DNA of 28,688 nt from a virus, in IMG/VR virus record IMGVR_UViG_3300042691_013486, positions 1 through 28,688 of that record, one strand, 5' to 3'. Position 1 is the first letter of the stretch. Each line of letters opens with the position of its first letter. Made by a program: the position numbers and the translations under genes. Positions 3,728 through 25,624 of the stretch are shown piece after piece. The notes beneath the pieces were generated by a model. The model was given only the letters and a program-made list of their open reading frames with translations, was not told the DNA's origin and ran no database searches.

Positions 3728-3993
3728 ACGATCTCCAAACCGTCATGGATCTCTTTGAGACCACCCGCGAGGACTACCTCGCCGAGGCGCGACTCGCAGC
3801 GGAATCCCTCGCCAATGAGCGTGGAGTCATCACCGTCAACGATGTCCGGGAGGTCTGTCCGCCTCCCGCGAACATCGACCCGCGAGTCATGGGGGCGATC
3901 TTCATGTCAAAGTCATGGCAGAAGGTGGGCTACATGTCATCGAGCCGCGCTCACATGAGGCCGATTGCCATGTTTCGGAGGGCGCATGAATGA
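3724..3993 (+). CDS. Small hypothetical protein, predicted winged-helix-like
   Basis: An 89-residue product read from the ATG at 3724 (ATGA overlap with the previous gene; an upstream in-frame ATG at 3709 is less likely). It has a first helix (TREDYLAEARLAAESLANER) followed by VITVNDVREVCPPP and an RVMGAIF segment, then basic residues near the end. Similar small proteins occur beside recombination genes in many phages, and the pattern looks like a small helical DNA-binding domain. I cannot name its family. It overlaps the following methyltransferase start by a few bases. Confidence 0.6.
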   Translation: MNDLQTVMDLFETTREDYLAEARLAAESLANERGVITVNDVREVCPPPANIDPRVMGAIFMSKSWQKVGYMSSSRAHMRPIAMFRRAHE

Positions 3994-4723
3994 GCTACAC
4001 CTATTTGCTGGAGCAGGGGGAGGAATCCTCGGCGGCATCCTTCTCGGACATACCCCCGTCTGTGCTGTCGAGATTGAACCTTACTGCCGCGAAGTCCTAC
4101 TCCAAAGGCAACGGGACGGAATCCTGCCAAAGTTCCCAATCTGGAATGATGTCACCACATTCGACGGAACCCCATGGAGAGGAAAAGTCGATGTCGTCTG
4201 CGGAGGATTCCCTTGCCAAGACATCTCAATCGCTGGGGGGGGGGCTGGAATTGAAGGCCAACGAAGCGGACTCTGGTCAGAAATGGCCCGAATCATTGGC
4301 GAAATACGACCAAGATTCGCGTTCATGGAGAACAGCCCAATGCTTGCTCTTCGAGGACTTGGGCGAGTCCTTGGAGACCTTTCCGAACTGGGGTATCATG
4401 CGAGGTGGGGAGTGTTGGGGGCAAACCACATTGGGGCAAGGCATAAACGGCAGAGATTGTGGATTGTTGGGAACGCCTTTGGCAAGGCTGTGGAAGTATC
4501 GGAAGTGGTGGAACCGTTCAAAGCCGATGGGCAATTTGGACGAGTTGCCAGCTACGAATCCAGAAATGTATGGGCATCTGGCTGGCAAGCAAATGAGCCT
4601 AACATGGTTGGAGCATCACATGATATTTCCACTTGGGTGGACCGATCTCGTTCCATTGGGAATTCACAAGTTCCAGCAGTGGCAGCACTCGCATTCCAAA
4701 TTCTTGGAGGGAAGCTCAAATGA
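3986..4723 (+). CDS. DNA (cytosine-5) methyltransferase
   Basis: A 245-residue C5-MTase that transfers a methyl group from AdoMet to cytosine. Motifs are in order: I at residues 7-13 (FAGAGGG, cofactor loop); IV at 74-81 (GFPCQDIS) with catalytic Cys77; VI at 115-117 (ENS, the usual ENV position); VIII at about 154-158 (KRQRL); and X at 225-233 (GNSQVPAVA). The target-recognition region between VIII and X is only about 65 residues, so this is a compact enzyme, typical for phage. Its role is probably protection against host restriction or self-marking. A tract of ten G (4235-4244) encodes Gly-Gly-Gly just after motif IV. A second ORF covers the whole gene in the +1 frame. It is coupled to its neighbours by short overlaps. 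Confidence 0.9.
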   Translation: MNELHLFAGAGGGILGGILLGHTPVCAVEIEPYCREVLLQRQRDGILPKFPIWNDVTTFDGTPWRGKVDVVCGGFPCQDISIAGGGAGIEGQRSGLWSEMARIIGEIRPRFAFMENSPMLALRGLGRVLGDLSELGYHARWGVLGANHIGARHKRQRLWIVGNAFGKAVEVSEVVEPFKADGQFGRVASYESRNVWASGWQANEPNMVGASHDISTWVDRSRSIGNSQVPAVAALAFQILGGKLK

Positions 4724-4727
4724 CTAA
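3990..4727 (+). CDS. Full-length overlapping ORF in the +1 frame of the methyltransferase gene
   Basis: A 245-codon open frame beginning MSYTYLLEQGEESSAASFSD that runs the entire length of the methyltransferase gene in the +1 frame, with its own ATG four bases after the methyltransferase ATG. It contains distinctive Trp-rich stretches (WRTAQCLLFEDL, FPNWGIMRGGECW, FPLGWTDL, HKFQQWQHSH). From memory, similar alternate-frame products are found among predicted phage proteins next to C5-MTases; I could not check this. The methyltransferase frame is clearly the functional one by motif content. This second frame may be a genuine overprinted gene or a long open by-product of a conserved frame. No separate ribosome binding site is evident. 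Confidence 0.3.
   Translation: MSYTYLLEQGEESSAASFSDIPPSVLSRLNLTAAKSYSKGNGTESCQSSQSGMMSPHSTEPHGEEKSMSSAEDSLAKTSQSLGGGLELKANEADSGQKWPESLAKYDQDSRSWRTAQCLLFEDLGESLETFPNWGIMRGGECWGQTTLGQGINGRDCGLLGTPLARLWKYRKWWNRSKPMGNLDELPATNPEMYGHLAGKQMSLTWLEHHMIFPLGWTDLVPLGIHKFQQWQHSHSKFLEGSSND
4235..4244. repeat. G10 homopolymer inside the methyltransferase gene
   Basis: Ten consecutive G, read as GGG GGG GGG G.. in the methyltransferase frame and as Gly-Gly-Gly in the overlapping frame. Gain or loss of one G would join the first half of one frame to the second half of the other. Confidence 0.9.
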
Positions 4728-13474: not shown

Positions 13475-13545
13475 TGCGGGGTAGTGAAAAGGTATCACAC
13501 CAGTTTCATAATCTGGAGTTCCGAGTTCGATTCTCGGCCCCGCTA
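13475..13545 (+). tRNA. tRNA-Met (CAT), possibly tRNA-Ile2
   Basis: A 71-nt cloverleaf folds by eye. The acceptor is TGCGGGG/CCCCGCT, six G-C pairs with an unpaired U1-U72. The D-stem is GTGA/TCAC with loop AAAGGTA. The anticodon stem is CCAGT/TCTGG (inner T-T mismatch) with loop TTCATAA, giving anticodon CAT. The T-stem CCGAG/CTCGG is perfect, with loop TTCGATT, and the discriminator is A73. No CCA is encoded. U11-A24 is elongator-like rather than initiator-like. CAT could also be a tRNA-Ile2 if C34 is modified to lysidine. Eight T follow immediately, so the transcript may end there. Confidence 0.8.
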
Positions 13546-13740: not shown

Positions 13741-14649
13741 ATGGCCGATCTAAACGGAGTTCTGACGAACATCCCCAATCACTTCACCACCCAGTTCGAC
13801 TCGAACTGGAAACACCTCGTTCAGCAGAAGAACAGCAAGCTGAAAGAATATGTCACCCTCGATTCCATCGAAGGGAAGGAGAAATCCTACAACCAACTCG
13901 ACGCAACCTCCATGACCCAGATCACGGATCGCTCCCGCGACACCCGGATCACCGATCAAGCGATGGCCAAGCGTTGGATTCGCCCGCTCAACTACGACTG
14001 CGCCAAACTCGTTGACGAGTTCGACGAGCAATTCCTCGGCGAGGTCGTGCTGCCCACCAGCCCGATCATCCAGAGCCACGCCGCAGCCTACGCTCGCACT
14101 TGCGACAAGATCATCATCGACGCCCTCGGCGGCACAGCCTTCACCGGCACGACCGGCACAACCGCCACCGTCCTGCCCGCAGGCCAGAAGATCGCAGCCA
14201 ACTATGTCGAGAGTGGCGCAGTCGCCAACTCCGGCCTCACCATCGCCAAACTCCGCGCAGCGAAGTTCCTCTTCGACTCCAACGAGGTGGACGAGGAGGA
14301 GGAGCGCATCATGGTTGTGTCCGCCAAGCAGCTTCAAGACCTGCTCCGCACGGTCGAGGCGACATCGGCAGACTACAACTCGGTTCGCGCCCTGGTTGAC
14401 GGCACTTTGAACACCTTCATGGGTTTCAAATTCCGCCGCAGCCAACAGCTCCCGCTGGCCACCGATATCCGCTCCTGCTTCGCGTATGTGAAGAGTGGCG
14501 TGATCCTCGCCGAGCGTGGACTCAAGACCATGATGGATGTCCGTCCCGACCTCTCGCACTCCCTTCAAATCCGCTCCGTGGCCAGCCTCGCTGCCGTCCG
14601 CATGGAAGAGAAGAAAGTCGTCGAGATCGCCTGCGACGAAGTCCTCTAA
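13741..14649 (+). CDS. Major capsid protein
   Basis: A 302-residue protein beginning MADLNGVLTNIPNHFTTQFD, with QQKNSKLKEYVTLDSIEGKE close behind. The order portal-scaffold-this gene, the length, and the pattern of podovirus capsid proteins of the Bordetella BPP-1 type support the call. Segments such as RWIRPLNYDCAKLVDEFDE, AAAYARTCDKIIIDALGG and the C-terminal LKTMMDVRPDLSHSLQIRSV fit the coat family with an HK97-like fold. It is preceded by two 14-mer motifs, a structured leader and a good AGGAG ribosome binding site, and followed by a strong terminator, consistent with high, separately controlled expression. Confidence 0.88.
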   Translation: MADLNGVLTNIPNHFTTQFDSNWKHLVQQKNSKLKEYVTLDSIEGKEKSYNQLDATSMTQITDRSRDTRITDQAMAKRWIRPLNYDCAKLVDEFDEQFLGEVVLPTSPIIQSHAAAYARTCDKIIIDALGGTAFTGTTGTTATVLPAGQKIAANYVESGAVANSGLTIAKLRAAKFLFDSNEVDEEEERIMVVSAKQLQDLLRTVEATSADYNSVRALVDGTLNTFMGFKFRRSQQLPLATDIRSCFAYVKSGVILAERGLKTMMDVRPDLSHSLQIRSVASLAAVRMEEKKVVEIACDEVL

Positions 14650-14720: not shown

Positions 14721-15734
14721 ATGACAGACATCCAAATCTGCAACCTCGCTCTCGCCCGACTCGGTGATTCCCGCATCACCGCGCTCACCGACGCGACCGC
14801 ACAGGCGCAATACTGCTCGCTCTTCTACGCGCAGACTTTGGAGGAACTCCAAGCGGAGTTCGATTGGCAGTTCTGCCGCAAGCAGGTCAACCTCACCAGC
14901 GGCACAGCCCCGCTCACCGGCTACTCATTGCAGTATGCCTTGCCCGCCGATTTCATCCGGGCGCTACGGCTCGGCAGCATCGATGCCAGCGAGAACTTCG
15001 GATCGTGGGAGATCATTGGAACCAACCTCCACACGAACATCGCCAGCCCCGTGGCGCTTGACTACATCGCGCTTGTCACGACCACCACTTCCTTCCCCGC
15101 CATCTTCGTCGAGGCGCTCTCCATGAAGCTCGCCGCCGTCCTCGCGATGCCGCTTACCGGCTCCAAGGAATTGTTCAAGCAATGCGCCGAGCTTTACATG
15201 GCCACCGTCCAGAAGCCCGCCTTCGGCAACGCCACCGAAGCCTACGCCCCGGCCCGCACATCCGCCGCTCCTGTGAGTGTCTCGGAGATTTGCCGCAGGG
15301 CCATCTTGCGTGTCGGCAGCGCCGACCTGTTCAAACCTCACGGCGAACCCATGGTCATCGCGCAGTCCCTCTACGAGTCGGTTCGCGACAGCCTGCTCTC
15401 CGACTTCCAATGGTCGTTTGCCCGCGCCCAAGTCTCCATCGTGAAGGACGCAGTCAATCCGACGACCGGCTACTCGTTCCGCTACGCGATCCCCGCATCC
15501 TCCAAACAAATCATCCGGGTCAACAACATCGATGACTCGGAGAACAACGCGCAGTGGGAAGTGGTAGGTGGATTCATCCATACCAACTTCACGACCCCGA
15601 TCATTCTTGATCACACCACCACCGTCACCGATGTGGCCAAGTTCCCGCCCATCTTCGTCGAAATCCTCACCGCCTCCCTCGCCTTCAAACTCGCCTCCAT
15701 CGTTGAATTCCCAACAAACCAACCATCCCAATAA
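14721..15734 (+). CDS. Tail tubular A-like protein with two domain copies
   Basis: A 337-residue protein with two copies of a domain resembling T7 gp11 (tail tubular protein A, the ring between portal and nozzle). Each has an opening helix (IQICNLALARLGD; SEICRRAILRVGSADLF), a DFQWSFARAQV-type helix end, a GYSFRYAIPAS strand pair, a D.SEN..(S/Q)WE(I/V)(I/V)G..(L/I)HTN core and a closing LA.KLA helix. Equivalent codons are 184 residues apart. The second copy lacks the final helix (SKELFKQCAELYM in copy 1); that segment reappears as the N-terminus of the next gene. The next gene is in the same frame, directly after this gene's TAA. No clear ribosome binding site precedes either start. Confidence 0.8.
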   Translation: MTDIQICNLALARLGDSRITALTDATAQAQYCSLFYAQTLEELQAEFDWQFCRKQVNLTSGTAPLTGYSLQYALPADFIRALRLGSIDASENFGSWEIIGTNLHTNIASPVALDYIALVTTTTSFPAIFVEALSMKLAAVLAMPLTGSKELFKQCAELYMATVQKPAFGNATEAYAPARTSAAPVSVSEICRRAILRVGSADLFKPHGEPMVIAQSLYESVRDSLLSDFQWSFARAQVSIVKDAVNPTTGYSFRYAIPASSKQIIRVNNIDDSENNAQWEVVGGFIHTNFTTPIILDHTTTVTDVAKFPPIFVEILTASLAFKLASIVEFPTNQPSQ

Positions 15735-17393
15735 ATGAAATCCGAAGAACTCTTCAAAGAACTTCAATTCCTCATGTCCAAGCCTGCCCTCCTTGAGGCA
15801 GTCGAGGCAGTCGCCAACTACTCCGGCACACTCACCACAACCGCCAGCGAGATCATCCGCCAAGCGGTCATGCGTGTTGGTTCTGCCGATGCCTTCAAGC
15901 AAAACGGGCAACCCTTCGTCTTCGCGGCCAAATTCTACGCGCAGACCATCAACGAGATTCTCTCGGAATACGATTGGCGCTTTGCTCGCCAACAAGCTGG
16001 GAATGTCGCAAAGGATGTCACCGCTCCCGTCACTGGATACGATTTCCGCTACCCCGTCCCAACAGGGACCATCAAGGTTCTGCGAATTAACGGAATCGAC
16101 GCCTCGGAGAACTTCGGCACATGGGAGGTTGTCGGCAACTTCATTCACACCAACTTGGTGACTCCGATCTCGGTGGATTACATCGCCGCCCCGACCCTCG
16201 ACACGACCTACCCGGCGATCTTTATCGAACTCGTCGTCGCCCGGCTCGCCTACAAGCTCGCCATGGCGCTCGGAGCCGGTGACCAAGCGATAGCCGCAGC
16301 CAAGGAATTCGACTTCATCATCCAGCGCCCCGCTCTCCAGCGCGAAATCGCTTCGGTCGCCGATGCTTCCACATCCAACACCATCACGACCCGCACGCAA
16401 ATTTGCAAACAGGCAATCATGCGCCTCGGCTCTTTGGAATCCCTCAAAAGCCAGCCGATGGTATTCGCGAATTCCTTCTACGATCACACGCTGGAAGAAC
16501 TCCTCTCCGATGTGCCGTGGGCGTTTGCGAAGAAGCAAGTCACGCTCGTTGTCAACGCGACCAATCCTTCGGCGGGCCACACGAAGCGTTACACCCTACC
16601 CACGGATTTTATCCAAATCATCCGGGTGAACAACATCGACACGACTGAGAACTTCGGCCAATGGGAAATCGTTGGAGGTTTCCTCCACACCGATATCGGA
16701 GCGCCGATCATCGTGGACTACACCTCGCTGGTCACCGATGTGACCCTGTTCCCGGCTCCGTTCATCGAGGCACTCATCTGCCGCCTCGCAGCCAAGATCG
16801 CGCTTCCGCTCACAGCCGATGGCAACATCGTCACCGCCATGGTTCAAGTGGCTGCTGAGACCATGCAGCGCCCCTCGGTGAAGAACCAGATCGAGAAATC
16901 CGCCAAACCCCGCACGACCTCCTCGGCCAACACGGTCTCGGAAATCTGCCGCCAAGCTATCCTCCGGGTGGGAAGCGCCGATGTCTTCAAACCTTACGGC
17001 GAACCGATGTCCATCGCGACCAGCCTCTTCGACCAGACCCGCAACGAACTCCTCGCCGACTTCGACTGGCAGTTCGCCCGTGTCCAGACAACCCTCTCTG
17101 CCGATGCTGTGGCTCCGTCCTTCGGTTACGCCAAACGCTACCTGCTGCCGACCACGACCATCAAGGTGCTGCGGGTCAATGGCGTGGATGAGGATGAAAA
17201 TTTCGGCAAGTGGGAGATCGTCGGCGGTTACCTCCACACGGATTCCACGCCTACGGTCCAGATCGAGACGACCGCCATTGTCACTGACGCCAGCAAGTTC
17301 CCGGCGGTCTTCGTGAACATGCTCACCGTCACACTCGCGATGAAACTCTCCCAACTCATGGAATCGCAACCCGCGCAGGTCGTTCGCCAATAA
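15735..17393 (+). CDS. Tail tubular A-like protein with three domain copies
   Basis: A 552-residue protein. Its N-terminal MKSEELFKELQFLMSKPALL aligns with the inter-domain helix of the previous gene (SKELFKQCAELYM ... KPA). Then follow three copies of the tail tubular A-like domain, opening with SEIIRQAVMRVGSADAF, TQICKQAIMRLGSLESL and SEICRQAILRVGSADVF. Each copy ends with the (I/V)HTN/LHTD strand, a V(T/A)D....FPA.F segment and a helical linker with RPA or RPS. The repeat period is 183 and 181 residues. The gene starts immediately after the TAA of the previous gene, in the same frame, and ends in TAA six bases before a third gene in the same frame. The series looks like one ancestral polyprotein cut by stop codons. 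Confidence 0.8.
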   Translation: MKSEELFKELQFLMSKPALLEAVEAVANYSGTLTTTASEIIRQAVMRVGSADAFKQNGQPFVFAAKFYAQTINEILSEYDWRFARQQAGNVAKDVTAPVTGYDFRYPVPTGTIKVLRINGIDASENFGTWEVVGNFIHTNLVTPISVDYIAAPTLDTTYPAIFIELVVARLAYKLAMALGAGDQAIAAAKEFDFIIQRPALQREIASVADASTSNTITTRTQICKQAIMRLGSLESLKSQPMVFANSFYDHTLEELLSDVPWAFAKKQVTLVVNATNPSAGHTKRYTLPTDFIQIIRVNNIDTTENFGQWEIVGGFLHTDIGAPIIVDYTSLVTDVTLFPAPFIEALICRLAAKIALPLTADGNIVTAMVQVAAETMQRPSVKNQIEKSAKPRTTSSANTVSEICRQAILRVGSADVFKPYGEPMSIATSLFDQTRNELLADFDWQFARVQTTLSADAVAPSFGYAKRYLLPTTTIKVLRVNGVDEDENFGKWEIVGGYLHTDSTPTVQIETTAIVTDASKFPAVFVNMLTVTLAMKLSQLMESQPAQVVRQ

Positions 17394-17396
17394 CGC

Positions 17397-18872
17397 ATGA
17401 AATCCGAGGAGCTATTCAAGGAACTCCAGTTCCTCGCAGGCAAGCCCGCATTGAAAAATGCGGTCGAGGCCCGCGCCTCCTCGCGCCCTTCCAGCGTCCT
17501 CACCGAGGACGAACTCTGCCGCCAAGCGATCCTTCGCGTTGGCACAGCCGAGCAATTCGGCCCCTCCTCGCAGGCGATGCTCCTCGCCAAGTCGCTCTAC
17601 CCGCAGGTGCGCGACTCCCTCCTTCTCACCGGATCGTGGACATGGGCGATGAAGTCCCTCACGGTGGCCGAGAGCCTCCCGCGCCCGGAATACAAATGGG
17701 CCTACCGCTACGCGATCCCGTCCGACTGCCTGCGCGTTTTCCGGGTGAACGACCAAGATTACGCCACCGGCGATGCGGCGTGGGAGGTCTCGGGGAATTT
17801 CGTCCTGTCGAACTCTGATTCCGGCGCTCCCGACTGGGTCGCGGGCCGCACCTACGAAGTTGATAATGTCGTAACCAGCGCCGAGGCAGTCTACCGCTGC
17901 ATGGTCACTGGCACAACCAAGCAACCCGGAGTCGCGGCGGGCTGGACCACCGACTGGGATGTCTGGCTCGGCAGCGCGATCACGCTGGAATATGTCCGCA
18001 AGGTCACCGAGGTCACCCTCTTCGACTCCCTCTTCATCGACCTCCTCACGGCCAGCCTTGCCGCCAAGCTCGCCGTCCCCCTCACTGGCGATGCCGCCAA
18101 GGCCGCGCTCCTCGCGAAGGAGACCGACATCCTCGGCAAAAACCCCGCCATGCGCCGGGATTCCACCGAGCGCAAGGGCCGCATCAAGCCCGCTTGGATG
18201 TCCAGCAAGCTCGTCTCTTCCCGTAATGGCGGCGACGGCATCGAGGCGCAAGCCAAGGCCGGAGGATCGGGTGGGGGAGTCAGCTACCCTTCGCTCCTCG
18301 TCCAAGTCGGCAATGTTTCCGCCGTATCCGGCAACACCCAGCCCTTCGTCACCAACTCCGGCACAGGCAACACCGCCGTTCTAAACTTCGGCCTTCCGCA
18401 GGCGGGTCTCCTCGACTCGGCCAAGACCACCCTCACCGGCAACGGCACGCTTCGCACCTTCTCGGTCTCCGGCCTCCGCTCCTCCGACCCCAACCATGTC
18501 ATCGTGGCGATCAACGGAGTCACGCAGGAACCCACAGCCGACTACCTCGTCAACCAGGGCAGCGGCACGATCACCTTCACCTCCGCAATCCCAAACGGCG
18601 CGAAGATCGTCGTCATTGCTCTCGGCCTCTACTCGCCCACCACCCAGCGCGATCCGGACAACTACATCCACGCCTTCGCCGTAAACACCGCAGGAACCTT
18701 TTCCTACTACGGACTACTCCTCAATTCCGACATCCCCGCCACCGGCCCCGCTGCCACCGTGGCGAAATGGGCGATCACCCGCTCCGCACTCACCGCCGCC
18801 GGAGCTGTCACCACCACCGCCAAGGCGACCAATGTCGCATGGACCAACCGGGAGACCGCCGCCTACGCCTAA
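17397..18872 (+). CDS. Tail tubular A-like domain fused to fibre-like C-terminal region
   Basis: A 491-residue protein. The first residues (MKSEELFKELQFLAGKPALK) nearly repeat those of the preceding gene. Residues about 37-255 are the sixth tail tubular A-like domain (ELCRQAILRVGTAEQF). It is interrupted after the equivalent of the HTN strand by an insert at about 143-190 (DWVAGRTYEVDNVVTSAEAV then YRCMVTG), resembling chitin-binding CBM5/12-type modules. From about 280 on the protein is Gly/Ser/Thr-rich and beta-structured (HVIVAINGVTQEPTADYLV, GTITFTSAIPNGAKIVV), like phage fibre modules. It is probably the outermost member of the series, linking tail ring and fibres. It overlaps the next gene by TAATG. 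Confidence 0.72.
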   Translation: MKSEELFKELQFLAGKPALKNAVEARASSRPSSVLTEDELCRQAILRVGTAEQFGPSSQAMLLAKSLYPQVRDSLLLTGSWTWAMKSLTVAESLPRPEYKWAYRYAIPSDCLRVFRVNDQDYATGDAAWEVSGNFVLSNSDSGAPDWVAGRTYEVDNVVTSAEAVYRCMVTGTTKQPGVAAGWTTDWDVWLGSAITLEYVRKVTEVTLFDSLFIDLLTASLAAKLAVPLTGDAAKAALLAKETDILGKNPAMRRDSTERKGRIKPAWMSSKLVSSRNGGDGIEAQAKAGGSGGGVSYPSLLVQVGNVSAVSGNTQPFVTNSGTGNTAVLNFGLPQAGLLDSAKTTLTGNGTLRTFSVSGLRSSDPNHVIVAINGVTQEPTADYLVNQGSGTITFTSAIPNGAKIVVIALGLYSPTTQRDPDNYIHAFAVNTAGTFSYYGLLLNSDIPATGPAATVAKWAITRSALTAAGAVTTTAKATNVAWTNRETAAYA

Positions 18873-22678: not shown

Positions 22679-25624
22679 ATGCCGAAGTTCGATTTCTATC
22701 CCTCGTTCAACGCCGGTGAAGTCTCCCCCTTCATCGACGCCCGGACGAGCTTGGAGAAATACCGCAGCGCCTGCCGCACGCTGGAGAACTTCCAAATCCT
22801 CCCCTACGGCGGCGTCATCCGACGCCCCGGCACGGAGTTTCGCGGCACGACCAAAAACCCCGCTGCGTCGAGCAACGGCGAGGTTCGCCTCATCGGATTC
22901 AACTTCAGCACCACCACCCGCTTCATCATCGAAATGGGCGTGGGCTACATGCGGTTCTGGAGCGGGGCGACCGGCGCTCCCGTGACCGTAGCCACCCCCG
23001 GCGCATGGGCAACCGGCAACATCTACTCGGTCGGCAACTATGTGCGCGAAGCCAGCGTCACCTACTACTGCACAAGCGCCCACACCTCCGGCACATTCGC
23101 GACCGACCTCGCCGAAGGACGCTGGGTGGCGCAGACGATCCTTGAGGTTCCCACCCCTTATGCGGCCTCTCATCTGCGCGAAGTCCAGTTCGCCCAGATC
23201 AACGATATCATGTATTTCGCGCACGCGAGCTACCCGCCCTACAAGCTCTCCCGCCTCGCCGACAACAACTGGACCTTCACCCCAGTCGTCTTCGATTACC
23301 CTCCGCTCCAAGAGCAGAACACCACCGAGACGGTCGTAAACATTTACCCCAATCCAGACACTTGGGTCGCCGGGACAAGCTATATCCTCGGCGACTATGT
23401 TCGCCCTCCCGCATGGACTGCCAGCACCGCCTACGCAGTGGGCGACATCGTCCTCTCCAGCAACATAGCCTACCGCTGCGCGACCGCCCACACCTCCCCG
23501 GCCACCTTCGCCGCCACGAACTGGACCGCGCAGAACCAAGCCAACCAGGCTTTCTACTACTACGCGATGAGCGCCCACCGGGCGGGGTCGAACTTCGGCG
23601 TGGATCAAGCCGCTGGCAAGTGGTCGCAATTCCCGATCCCACTCAACGAAATGGGCAAATACTCGGTCAGCGCCGGAAGTGGCCTTTTCCCCTCTTCGAC
23701 AATTGGTTCGCAAGTGGAACTCAAGTGGCAGAAGCCAAACTTCTACGCCGAGCAGGTCATCACCGGCAACTATGTCTCCACCACGCTGGCCGTGGAAGGC
23801 GGATGGGATTTCAGCACCTCCGGCACTTGGACGGCCACACTCCAACTCCTGCGTGTCCCGGCGGATGTCTTTTCGGCAGGCCGCATCGTGGCCACGGCCA
23901 TCCGCAATACCAACACCGTCACCGTCTACCATCCCTTCCACGGCTGGCAAAACGGAAACTTCATCTGCGTGGGCGATGGATTGGCCGCAAACAACTACGC
24001 CACACACGGAGCGGTCATTACTTACATCGACCAGCACAGCTACTCCTACCCGATCACCGGCAACACGCAAACCGGCTATCTCGACATCTACCCGGAGAAC
24101 CTCACGAAGATGGAGATCGTGAAGGAATATGCTGTGGCAGCGGATCGCAATATCATCGCGAGCGGCACGGAATCCGAACGCTGCGGCCTCAAAATCCGCA
24201 TTCTGGATTGGGCGTCCGTATCTGGAACCACCGTGCAAAAAGCCCGATTGGAAACCGACACCAAGGTCACAGGCGGTATCGCCACCATCGTCGGCAGCGC
24301 CCAGATCAATGTGGACAAGTGGCTCGGCGAGGGGCCGCGCAACCAGCGCAATACAAAATACTGGGCCTTCGGCAGTTTCTCCTCGACTCGCGGCTACCCG
24401 CGCTCCGTCGCCATGCACGAACAGCGCCTCTGCTTCGGCGGCACATCGTCCCAACCAAACACGATCTGGTGCAGCCAAATTGACAATTTCGAGAACTTCA
24501 AGACCGGCGTCACCGCGAGCGATGCGGTCCAATTCACGCTCGCCGCCTCCGAGGGCAACCGCATCAACTGGATGTATTCGCAGTCCCAACTCCTCATCGG
24601 CACATCCGGCGACGAGTGGACCATCGGCAGCGCCGACTCCTCGGCCTCGCTCTCGGCCACCAATGTTCAAGCCAGCCGCCAGTCGAGCTACGGGTCAAAA
24701 TACATGCGGGCCGCGCTGGTCAACGATGTCCTGCTTTTCGTCCAGCGCAACGGACGCAAGGTGCGCGAACTCGTCTACGAACTCAACAAGGACGGATGGG
24801 TCGCGCCGGACCTCACGCTGCTCGCCGAACACATCACCAGCGGCGAGATCGTCGAGGTTGCCTACCAGCAGCAGCCCGATGCCGTCCTTTGGTGCGTGCG
24901 CGGAGACGGCACGCTCATCGCCATGACCTACGAGCGTGACCAGAAGGTCGTCGGCTGGCATCGCCATGTCATTGCCGATAATGCCGATGTCGAGTCTGTC
25001 GCCACCATCTACGGCAACCAAACCGAGGACGAGGTCTGGATGGTCGTGAAGCGCACCGTCTCCGGGCAGGACTACCGAACCATCGAGCGGTTCCCGCTCC
25101 TCTGGCGCAAACACATCGATGACCAGACAACCAACTCATGGCGCTACCTCGATGGATGGTCCGCATTCCCATCCGGCGCAGCAGGCCGCTCGCTATTTGG
25201 TATTGCACACCTCAACGGAAAAACTGTCACCATCGTGCAGGAGGGCCAAGCTCCCATCACTCGAACGGTTACTTTAGGAGTTGTCGTTCTGCCCGCATCC
25301 AGCGCCGGATATGTCGGCCTGCCCTACACCAGCACGCTCACGCCCATGAAGCTCGACATGGACCTTGAGGACGGCACTTCGCAGGGCCGCAAGAAGCGCA
25401 TCCACAAAATCATCGCCCGCCTCTACAAGAGCCGGGGAGGGGAGATCAGCACGAACAACGGCCAATGGTATGCCCTCGCCGACACACTCTCCACCGGAGA
25501 CCAAAAAATGATCTTGGCCGGTGCGTTTGGATTCGACGCAGATGTCACCTTGAGGCAAACTGCTCCCTACCCAATGGCCGTCATCGCCCTTCAACCTGTG
25601 TGGGATACCTTCGGAAATGAGTGA
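22679..25624 (+). CDS. Tail tubular B-like protein with CBM5/12-like insertions
   Basis: A 981-residue protein of the podovirus tail nozzle family (T7 gp12 role). The N-terminus has the characteristic FYPSFNAGEVSPFIDARTSL followed by CRTLENFQILPYGGVIRRPG. The central part includes AMHEQRLCFGGTSSQPNTIW and WTIGSADSSASLSATNVQAS, conserved in nozzle proteins. It is longer than T7 gp12. Inserts near residues 107-153 and 227-313 have the W.(A/T)G..Y..G(N/D)YV...YYC/YRC pattern of chitin-binding CBM5/12-like modules. The nozzle extends the tail below the adaptor ring and may contact the cell surface through these inserts. It overlaps the next gene by a few bases. Confidence 0.85.
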   Translation: MPKFDFYPSFNAGEVSPFIDARTSLEKYRSACRTLENFQILPYGGVIRRPGTEFRGTTKNPAASSNGEVRLIGFNFSTTTRFIIEMGVGYMRFWSGATGAPVTVATPGAWATGNIYSVGNYVREASVTYYCTSAHTSGTFATDLAEGRWVAQTILEVPTPYAASHLREVQFAQINDIMYFAHASYPPYKLSRLADNNWTFTPVVFDYPPLQEQNTTETVVNIYPNPDTWVAGTSYILGDYVRPPAWTASTAYAVGDIVLSSNIAYRCATAHTSPATFAATNWTAQNQANQAFYYYAMSAHRAGSNFGVDQAAGKWSQFPIPLNEMGKYSVSAGSGLFPSSTIGSQVELKWQKPNFYAEQVITGNYVSTTLAVEGGWDFSTSGTWTATLQLLRVPADVFSAGRIVATAIRNTNTVTVYHPFHGWQNGNFICVGDGLAANNYATHGAVITYIDQHSYSYPITGNTQTGYLDIYPENLTKMEIVKEYAVAADRNIIASGTESERCGLKIRILDWASVSGTTVQKARLETDTKVTGGIATIVGSAQINVDKWLGEGPRNQRNTKYWAFGSFSSTRGYPRSVAMHEQRLCFGGTSSQPNTIWCSQIDNFENFKTGVTASDAVQFTLAASEGNRINWMYSQSQLLIGTSGDEWTIGSADSSASLSATNVQASRQSSYGSKYMRAALVNDVLLFVQRNGRKVRELVYELNKDGWVAPDLTLLAEHITSGEIVEVAYQQQPDAVLWCVRGDGTLIAMTYERDQKVVGWHRHVIADNADVESVATIYGNQTEDEVWMVVKRTVSGQDYRTIERFPLLWRKHIDDQTTNSWRYLDGWSAFPSGAAGRSLFGIAHLNGKTVTIVQEGQAPITRTVTLGVVVLPASSAGYVGLPYTSTLTPMKLDMDLEDGTSQGRKKRIHKIIARLYKSRGGEISTNNGQWYALADTLSTGDQKMILAGAFGFDADVTLRQTAPYPMAVIALQPVWDTFGNE

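Follow-up and report, generated by a model that had tools for sequence, protein, structure and literature searches.

Podoviruses other than crassviruses had, as of 2023, been seen with only one tail-adaptor ring, made of one protein (PMC10172136). In the T7 adaptor, gp11, the loop joining helices 1 and 2 touches the nozzle, and the C-terminal helix clasps the portal (PMC6702177). The examined members of the type represented by T7 gp11, epsilon15 gp11 and the Carin1 connector each come from a phage with a single adaptor gene, which encodes a single domain. By contrast, the crassvirus crAss001 has five stacked dodecameric rings built from four paralogous ring proteins, and its barrel is longer than those of other podoviruses (PMC10172136). 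A different kind of precedent comes from termination–reinitiation, which needs closely placed or overlapping stop and start codons: overlapping pairs couple translation, and they are enriched among the subunits of heteromeric complexes (PMC10666635).

The locus described here, on a 28,688-nt stretch of DNA from an uncultured short-tailed phage (IMG/VR record IMGVR_UViG_3300042691_013486, positions 1 to 28,688; hereafter the window), shares features with each of these systems and departs from each. Its domains have the fold common to T7 gp11, epsilon15 gp11 and Carin1, with a full-length structural match across a stop codon, and the gene order capsid protein–adaptor–nozzle is the same, but the window group carries 2 to 7 domains in tandem, with breaks inside the helical bundle. 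With PhicrAss001 R1–R5 (PMC10172136) it has in common several paralogous adaptor-like ring proteins and a number of ring genes that varies among relatives; there, each ring unit is a separate gene and the stacking has been solved, whereas here the units are fused in tandem (2+3+1 in the window) in a set order, with splits falling between helix 3 and helix 4, and the stacking is proposed from array sizes. As in termination–reinitiation gene pairs (PMC10666635), stop and start overlap or lie a few bases apart and a fixed product ratio in a complex would be expected, but at this locus the boundary in addition runs through a folded domain, leaving part of the upstream domain on the downstream product.

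Six tail-adaptor domains of the T7 gp11/epsilon15 gp11 type are spread over three plus-strand genes in the window. Translation of 14721–18872 gives 1384 codons in one open frame, with TAA at codons 338 and 891 plus the terminal stop, and the anchor codons of successive domains lie 184, 188, 183, 181 and 190 codons apart, exactly reproducing the single frame with two internal stops and the period continuing across them that an earlier note on this DNA had described. As judged from sequence, the spacing and homology of the domains far exceed chance. Gene 1 (14721–15734) encodes alpha (about 14721–15263) and beta without its last helix (about 15264–15734), as read from a phrog_394 match, a domain HMM and a domain tree. 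Gene 2 (15735–17393) opens with the helix 4 that completes beta (15735–15800, MKSEELFKELQFLMSKPALL), assigned by alignment with single-domain adaptors and by the equivalent joined model of epsilon, and continues with gamma (about 15828–16373), delta (about 16374–16916) and epsilon without its last helix (about 16920–17393), on the evidence of phrog_394, the HMM and the model. Gene 3 (17397–18872) likewise opens with the helix 4 that completes epsilon (17397–17465, MKSEELFKELQFLAGKPALKNAV), assigned from the joined model and structural alignment; zeta, the last adaptor domain, follows (about 17490–18212, with an ancestral-type C-terminus). The six repeats of the earlier note are therefore six homologous domains, with the refinement that the sixth ends near 18212 and the remainder of gene 3 is fibre-like (18240–18872; phrog_2710 tail fiber, 1.4e-6).

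The adaptor identity of these domains is strongly supported. The phrog_394 ‘tail protein’ profile matches all three genes (8.8e-72, 2.6e-75 and 8.4e-28 for genes 1, 2 and 3), and the domain HMM, built from the domains of the window and its relatives, detects six domains in the window, each at E 8e-46 or better. The epsilon15 gp11 protein, which its depositors describe as T7 tail tubular protein A-like, can be aligned with the domains of the window, and Pfam gives a weak SU10_adaptor match to the array, below the cut-off. Because a PDB sequence search with gamma alone returned no match at E up to 1, structure comparison was needed.

Several observations indicate that the gene boundary cuts the adaptor fold (two helices, a beta fibre-dock and two further helices, with a four-helix bundle). 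First, both breaks fall between helix 3 and helix 4, which leaves helix 4 on the following protein; beta and epsilon lack it before the stop in every array that has a break, and the break position is conserved. Second, the segment after the stop, MKSEELFKEL, is homologous to the final helix of uninterrupted domains, and when it is aligned with single-domain adaptors from BcepC6B, epsilon15, Baldr and vB_EcoM_APEC, this post-stop helix falls where they have their final helix. The earlier note had pointed to this reappearing helix and proposed gene splitting with the helix displaced onto the next gene; both points hold, and the cut can now be placed between helices 3 and 4.

Third, joining across the stop restores the full adaptor fold in a predicted structure. 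The model of epsilon core plus post-stop helix (TAA read as Gln, 39 sequences, the stop being residue 157) reached pLDDT 85.4 and pTM 0.80, with 88 and 84 for the blocks with the post-stop helix. Structure comparison matched it to Carin1 (Z 15.9, rmsd 4.0, 173 aligned, residues 3–190), LME-1 (Z 15.2, rmsd 3.8, 172 aligned, residues 1–190) and T7 gp11 (6r21; Z 11.9, rmsd 4.7, 163 aligned, residues 1–190), all well above unrelated rows near Z 5. Scores against the crAss001 R proteins, Z 7.7 to 8.3, lie in between and make a structural relation to them no more than possible. A larger joined model of 819 residues agrees on the fold, but its domain arrangement is not usable (pTM 0.35). The structure prediction of a joined product that the earlier note had suggested thus returned an adaptor fold for epsilon.

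On the basis of these models we propose helix exchange between chains, in which the N-terminal helix of each protein would complete the preceding protein's bundle in trans; alignment when fused need not mean exchange in the virion. The genes could instead encode ordinary separate paralogous adaptors, with the helix that opens genes 2 and 3 either packed against its own chain or acting as a free linker, and with rings formed by only some domains. Each gene does have its own start codon adjoining the stop, and the gene 2 N-terminal helix, which is without a partner in the 819-residue model, is predicted at low confidence (pLDDT about 49). We nonetheless consider such separate adaptors unlikely, given the homology of the start helix to helix 4, the incomplete beta and epsilon upstream of every break, the full fold regained on joining and the constancy of the break position across arrays.

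How the chains are translated can be approached from relatives. A first scan of viral contigs gave 80 relatives, and two further scans brought the set to 185 sequences, or 89 distinct arrays. At every break found in these arrays, the stop and the next ATG adjoin or overlap (≤8 nt), with the start offset from the first base of the stop by −1, +2, +3, +6 or +8; the forms are ATGA overlaps, TAATG, TAAATG, TAACGCATG and a single case of the +8 offset. The next protein begins with a conserved MK...LF or MK...FF helix, whereas the residue count before the stop ranges from 1 to 12 across arrays. In the window, junction 1 (15732–15737) is TAAATG, with the start directly after the stop, where most relatives have ATGA; junction 2 (17391–17399) reads TAA CGC ATG, where relatives have TAAATG or ATGA.

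The junction frames bear directly on a polyprotein made by readthrough of both TAA codons, or by frameshifting in relatives. Both window junctions are in frame, and low-level readthrough could still occur, but in the 89-array survey the frame changes at 45 of 47 first junctions and at 27 of 57 second ones (in frame, 2/47 and 30/57), mostly through ATGA overlaps and also through TAATG; readthrough would not yield the domain where the junction lies in another frame, as it mostly does in relatives. One near-identical phage, L021, with 99% identity to the window in gene 2, differs at junction 1 by one A (TAATG versus TAAATG) and is out of frame there. No slippery motif common to the pre-stop sequences was seen by eye in relatives' junctions, the pre-stop tails vary in length, and no suppressor tRNA was found in the window, where the only tRNA is a tRNA-Met (CAT; 13475–13545, separating the capsid gene from the gene before it). 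Since junction frame and tail length vary in relatives, stop readthrough is ruled out as a shared mechanism, and the survey indicates that frame continuity in the window is incidental; a shared frame at one junction has a prior chance of 1 in 3 and is not kept in relatives. The CAA TAA context of both stops, which the earlier note had taken as a possible sign of readthrough, is incidental as well, because relatives' junctions are mostly ATGA or TAATG in another frame. We regard the polyprotein as very improbable. That the stops are assembly or sequencing errors is more improbable again, to the point of being negligible: the window comes from an IMG/VR virus record that is possibly incomplete, but many independent contigs carry the same breaks with start codons, which refutes this explanation.

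The comparison with relatives, which the earlier note had named as a possible refutation, therefore finds the repeats present and the frame continuity not conserved, and the constant adjacency of stop and ATG favours reinitiation, one of the options it had offered. The three genes are probably separate and translationally coupled; the case for separate genes is strong, and the coupling we infer from the spacing. By the same spacing, genes 1–3 would be translated 1:1:1 via termination–reinitiation, a ratio that would be required were every core dependent on the following chain for its helix 4.

In the domain tree the domains fall into seven types, alpha, B, beta, gamma, delta, epsilon and zeta, six of which occur in the window. 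The tree shows the domains to be paralogues of one adaptor type, in line with the phrog_394 matches and with the earlier proposal of a duplicated gp11-type adaptor. Written with one letter per type (a, B, b, g, d, e, z) and a slash at each break, the arrays seen are az, ae/z, ade/z, aBe/z, aBde/z, ab/gde/z and aBb/gde/z. All are ordered subsets of 2 to 7 domains that open with alpha and close with zeta, and beta and epsilon are the only types followed by a break. Trailing fragments of zeta in the raw array listing, read as matches to an insertion in the nozzle-type gene (below), were excluded from the counts. The two split types, beta and epsilon, form sister clades (UFBoot 97; 94 on helical columns). 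The simplest history is therefore a single split, later duplicated together with its junction, and this would account for gene 2 and gene 3 having near-identical starts.

Individual arrays depart from this pattern in detail. The fibre-dock of gamma in L043, L047 and L077 groups inside the alpha clade while the helical part groups with gamma, and the L010 gamma (L010:2322–2864) looks similar by eye; these four domains suggest swapping of the fibre-dock between ring positions. The delta domain of L064, L069, L076 and L080 has an extra insertion of roughly 80 residues, and the L080 zeta (L080:4601–6532) has a seemingly very large insertion, after which the final part of the domain matches again about 1.3 kb further downstream.

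One assembly compatible with the rule of 12-fold adaptor rings (PMC6702177), and with array sizes of 2, 3, 4 and 6 that divide 12, is a single pseudo-symmetric ring in which the six domains are neighbours and the set is present twice to give 12 domains. Close relatives with five domains (L049, L052 and L080) and seven (L076 and L077, both ending at a contig end) weigh against it, as neither number divides 12; they also overturned the idea, drawn from the first counts, that domain totals must divide 12. We consider this single ring distinctly improbable. Because 5- and 7-domain sets cannot build one 12-domain ring, a stacked barrel is the simplest remaining picture. Each domain type would form one 12-fold ring, with 12 copies of each chain, and the rings, six in the window and two to seven in relatives, would stack into a barrel beneath the portal and so lengthen the tail, the array sizes being what suggests the stacking. 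Three proteins whose six adaptor domains form stacked 12-fold rings, strung together covalently and linked by a helix in trans, are in our judgement the best explanation and a moderately probable one. The broader proposition is a short-tailed phage lineage whose tail-barrel length depends on how many tandem adaptor domains its covalent chains carry, each domain giving one 12-fold ring in a fixed order and an in-trans helix 4 joining successive chains; we regard it as evenly balanced. In this picture the adaptor would be hetero-oligomeric, as the earlier note envisaged.

The two ends of the array suggest an orientation for such a barrel. Alpha alone keeps a 16-residue loop between helix 1 and helix 2 (type B, missed by the pattern, lay outside this measurement), and zeta is the one type retaining the ancestral-type C-terminus, whose motif is present in 143 of 154 zeta domains. 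Because the alpha loop and the zeta C-terminus match the contact elements of T7 gp11, alpha may be nozzle-proximal and zeta portal-proximal, and the chains may run from nozzle to portal. The fibre-like region on zeta would then sit near the portal, which is unusual and counts against the stacked-ring explanation.

The gene neighbourhood is that of an adaptor. The major capsid protein (13741–14649, plus strand; PF19821, Phage_capsid_2, 3e-76) is encoded directly upstream of the array, and downstream lies a plus-strand tail protein gene (22679–25624; phrog_376 tail protein, 2.5e-173) that we take to encode a gp12-type nozzle; the array has the same place between capsid and nozzle-type genes in relatives. 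Insertions resembling carbohydrate-binding module family 5/12 occur both in the nozzle-type protein (PF02839, 9.2e-12) and, weakly, in zeta (17820–17960, plus strand; PF02839 E 0.0014, 19.1 bits, below the Pfam cut-off of 26.2). Elsewhere in the window, at 3965–4727, two long same-strand open reading frames in different frames overlap almost completely; one encodes a C5 cytosine methylase (PF00145, 9.5e-33) and the other matches phrog_1008 (3.4e-10).

A tblastn search of gene 2 against cultured phages matched 113 phage records, none covering 80% of gene 2, and among the matches listed the two-piece top matches fall on one single-domain-sized span; at that sensitivity, the search showed no tandem array in cultured phages. 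None was found in the literature within open papers. The profile phrog_9239 (741 positions), considered as a known four-domain tandem adaptor, was set aside, as the best stretch matched by the tandem proteins covers only about its first 167 positions. The two-domain array of one relative, L085, is found within a Verrucomicrobia metagenome-assembled genome; in that phylum, 33 of 388 genomes have some match, mostly covering one domain.

Set beside the single one-protein ring seen by 2023 in podoviruses other than crassviruses, this lineage of 2 to 7 domains would, if the stacked-ring explanation is true, be a natural series. Its close relatives with 2 to 7 ordered domains would allow a test of how ring number sets tail length and of what is gained during infection. 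The lineage would further exemplify gene boundaries that are maintained within a fold, reinitiation supplying the mutually completing chains in equal amounts.
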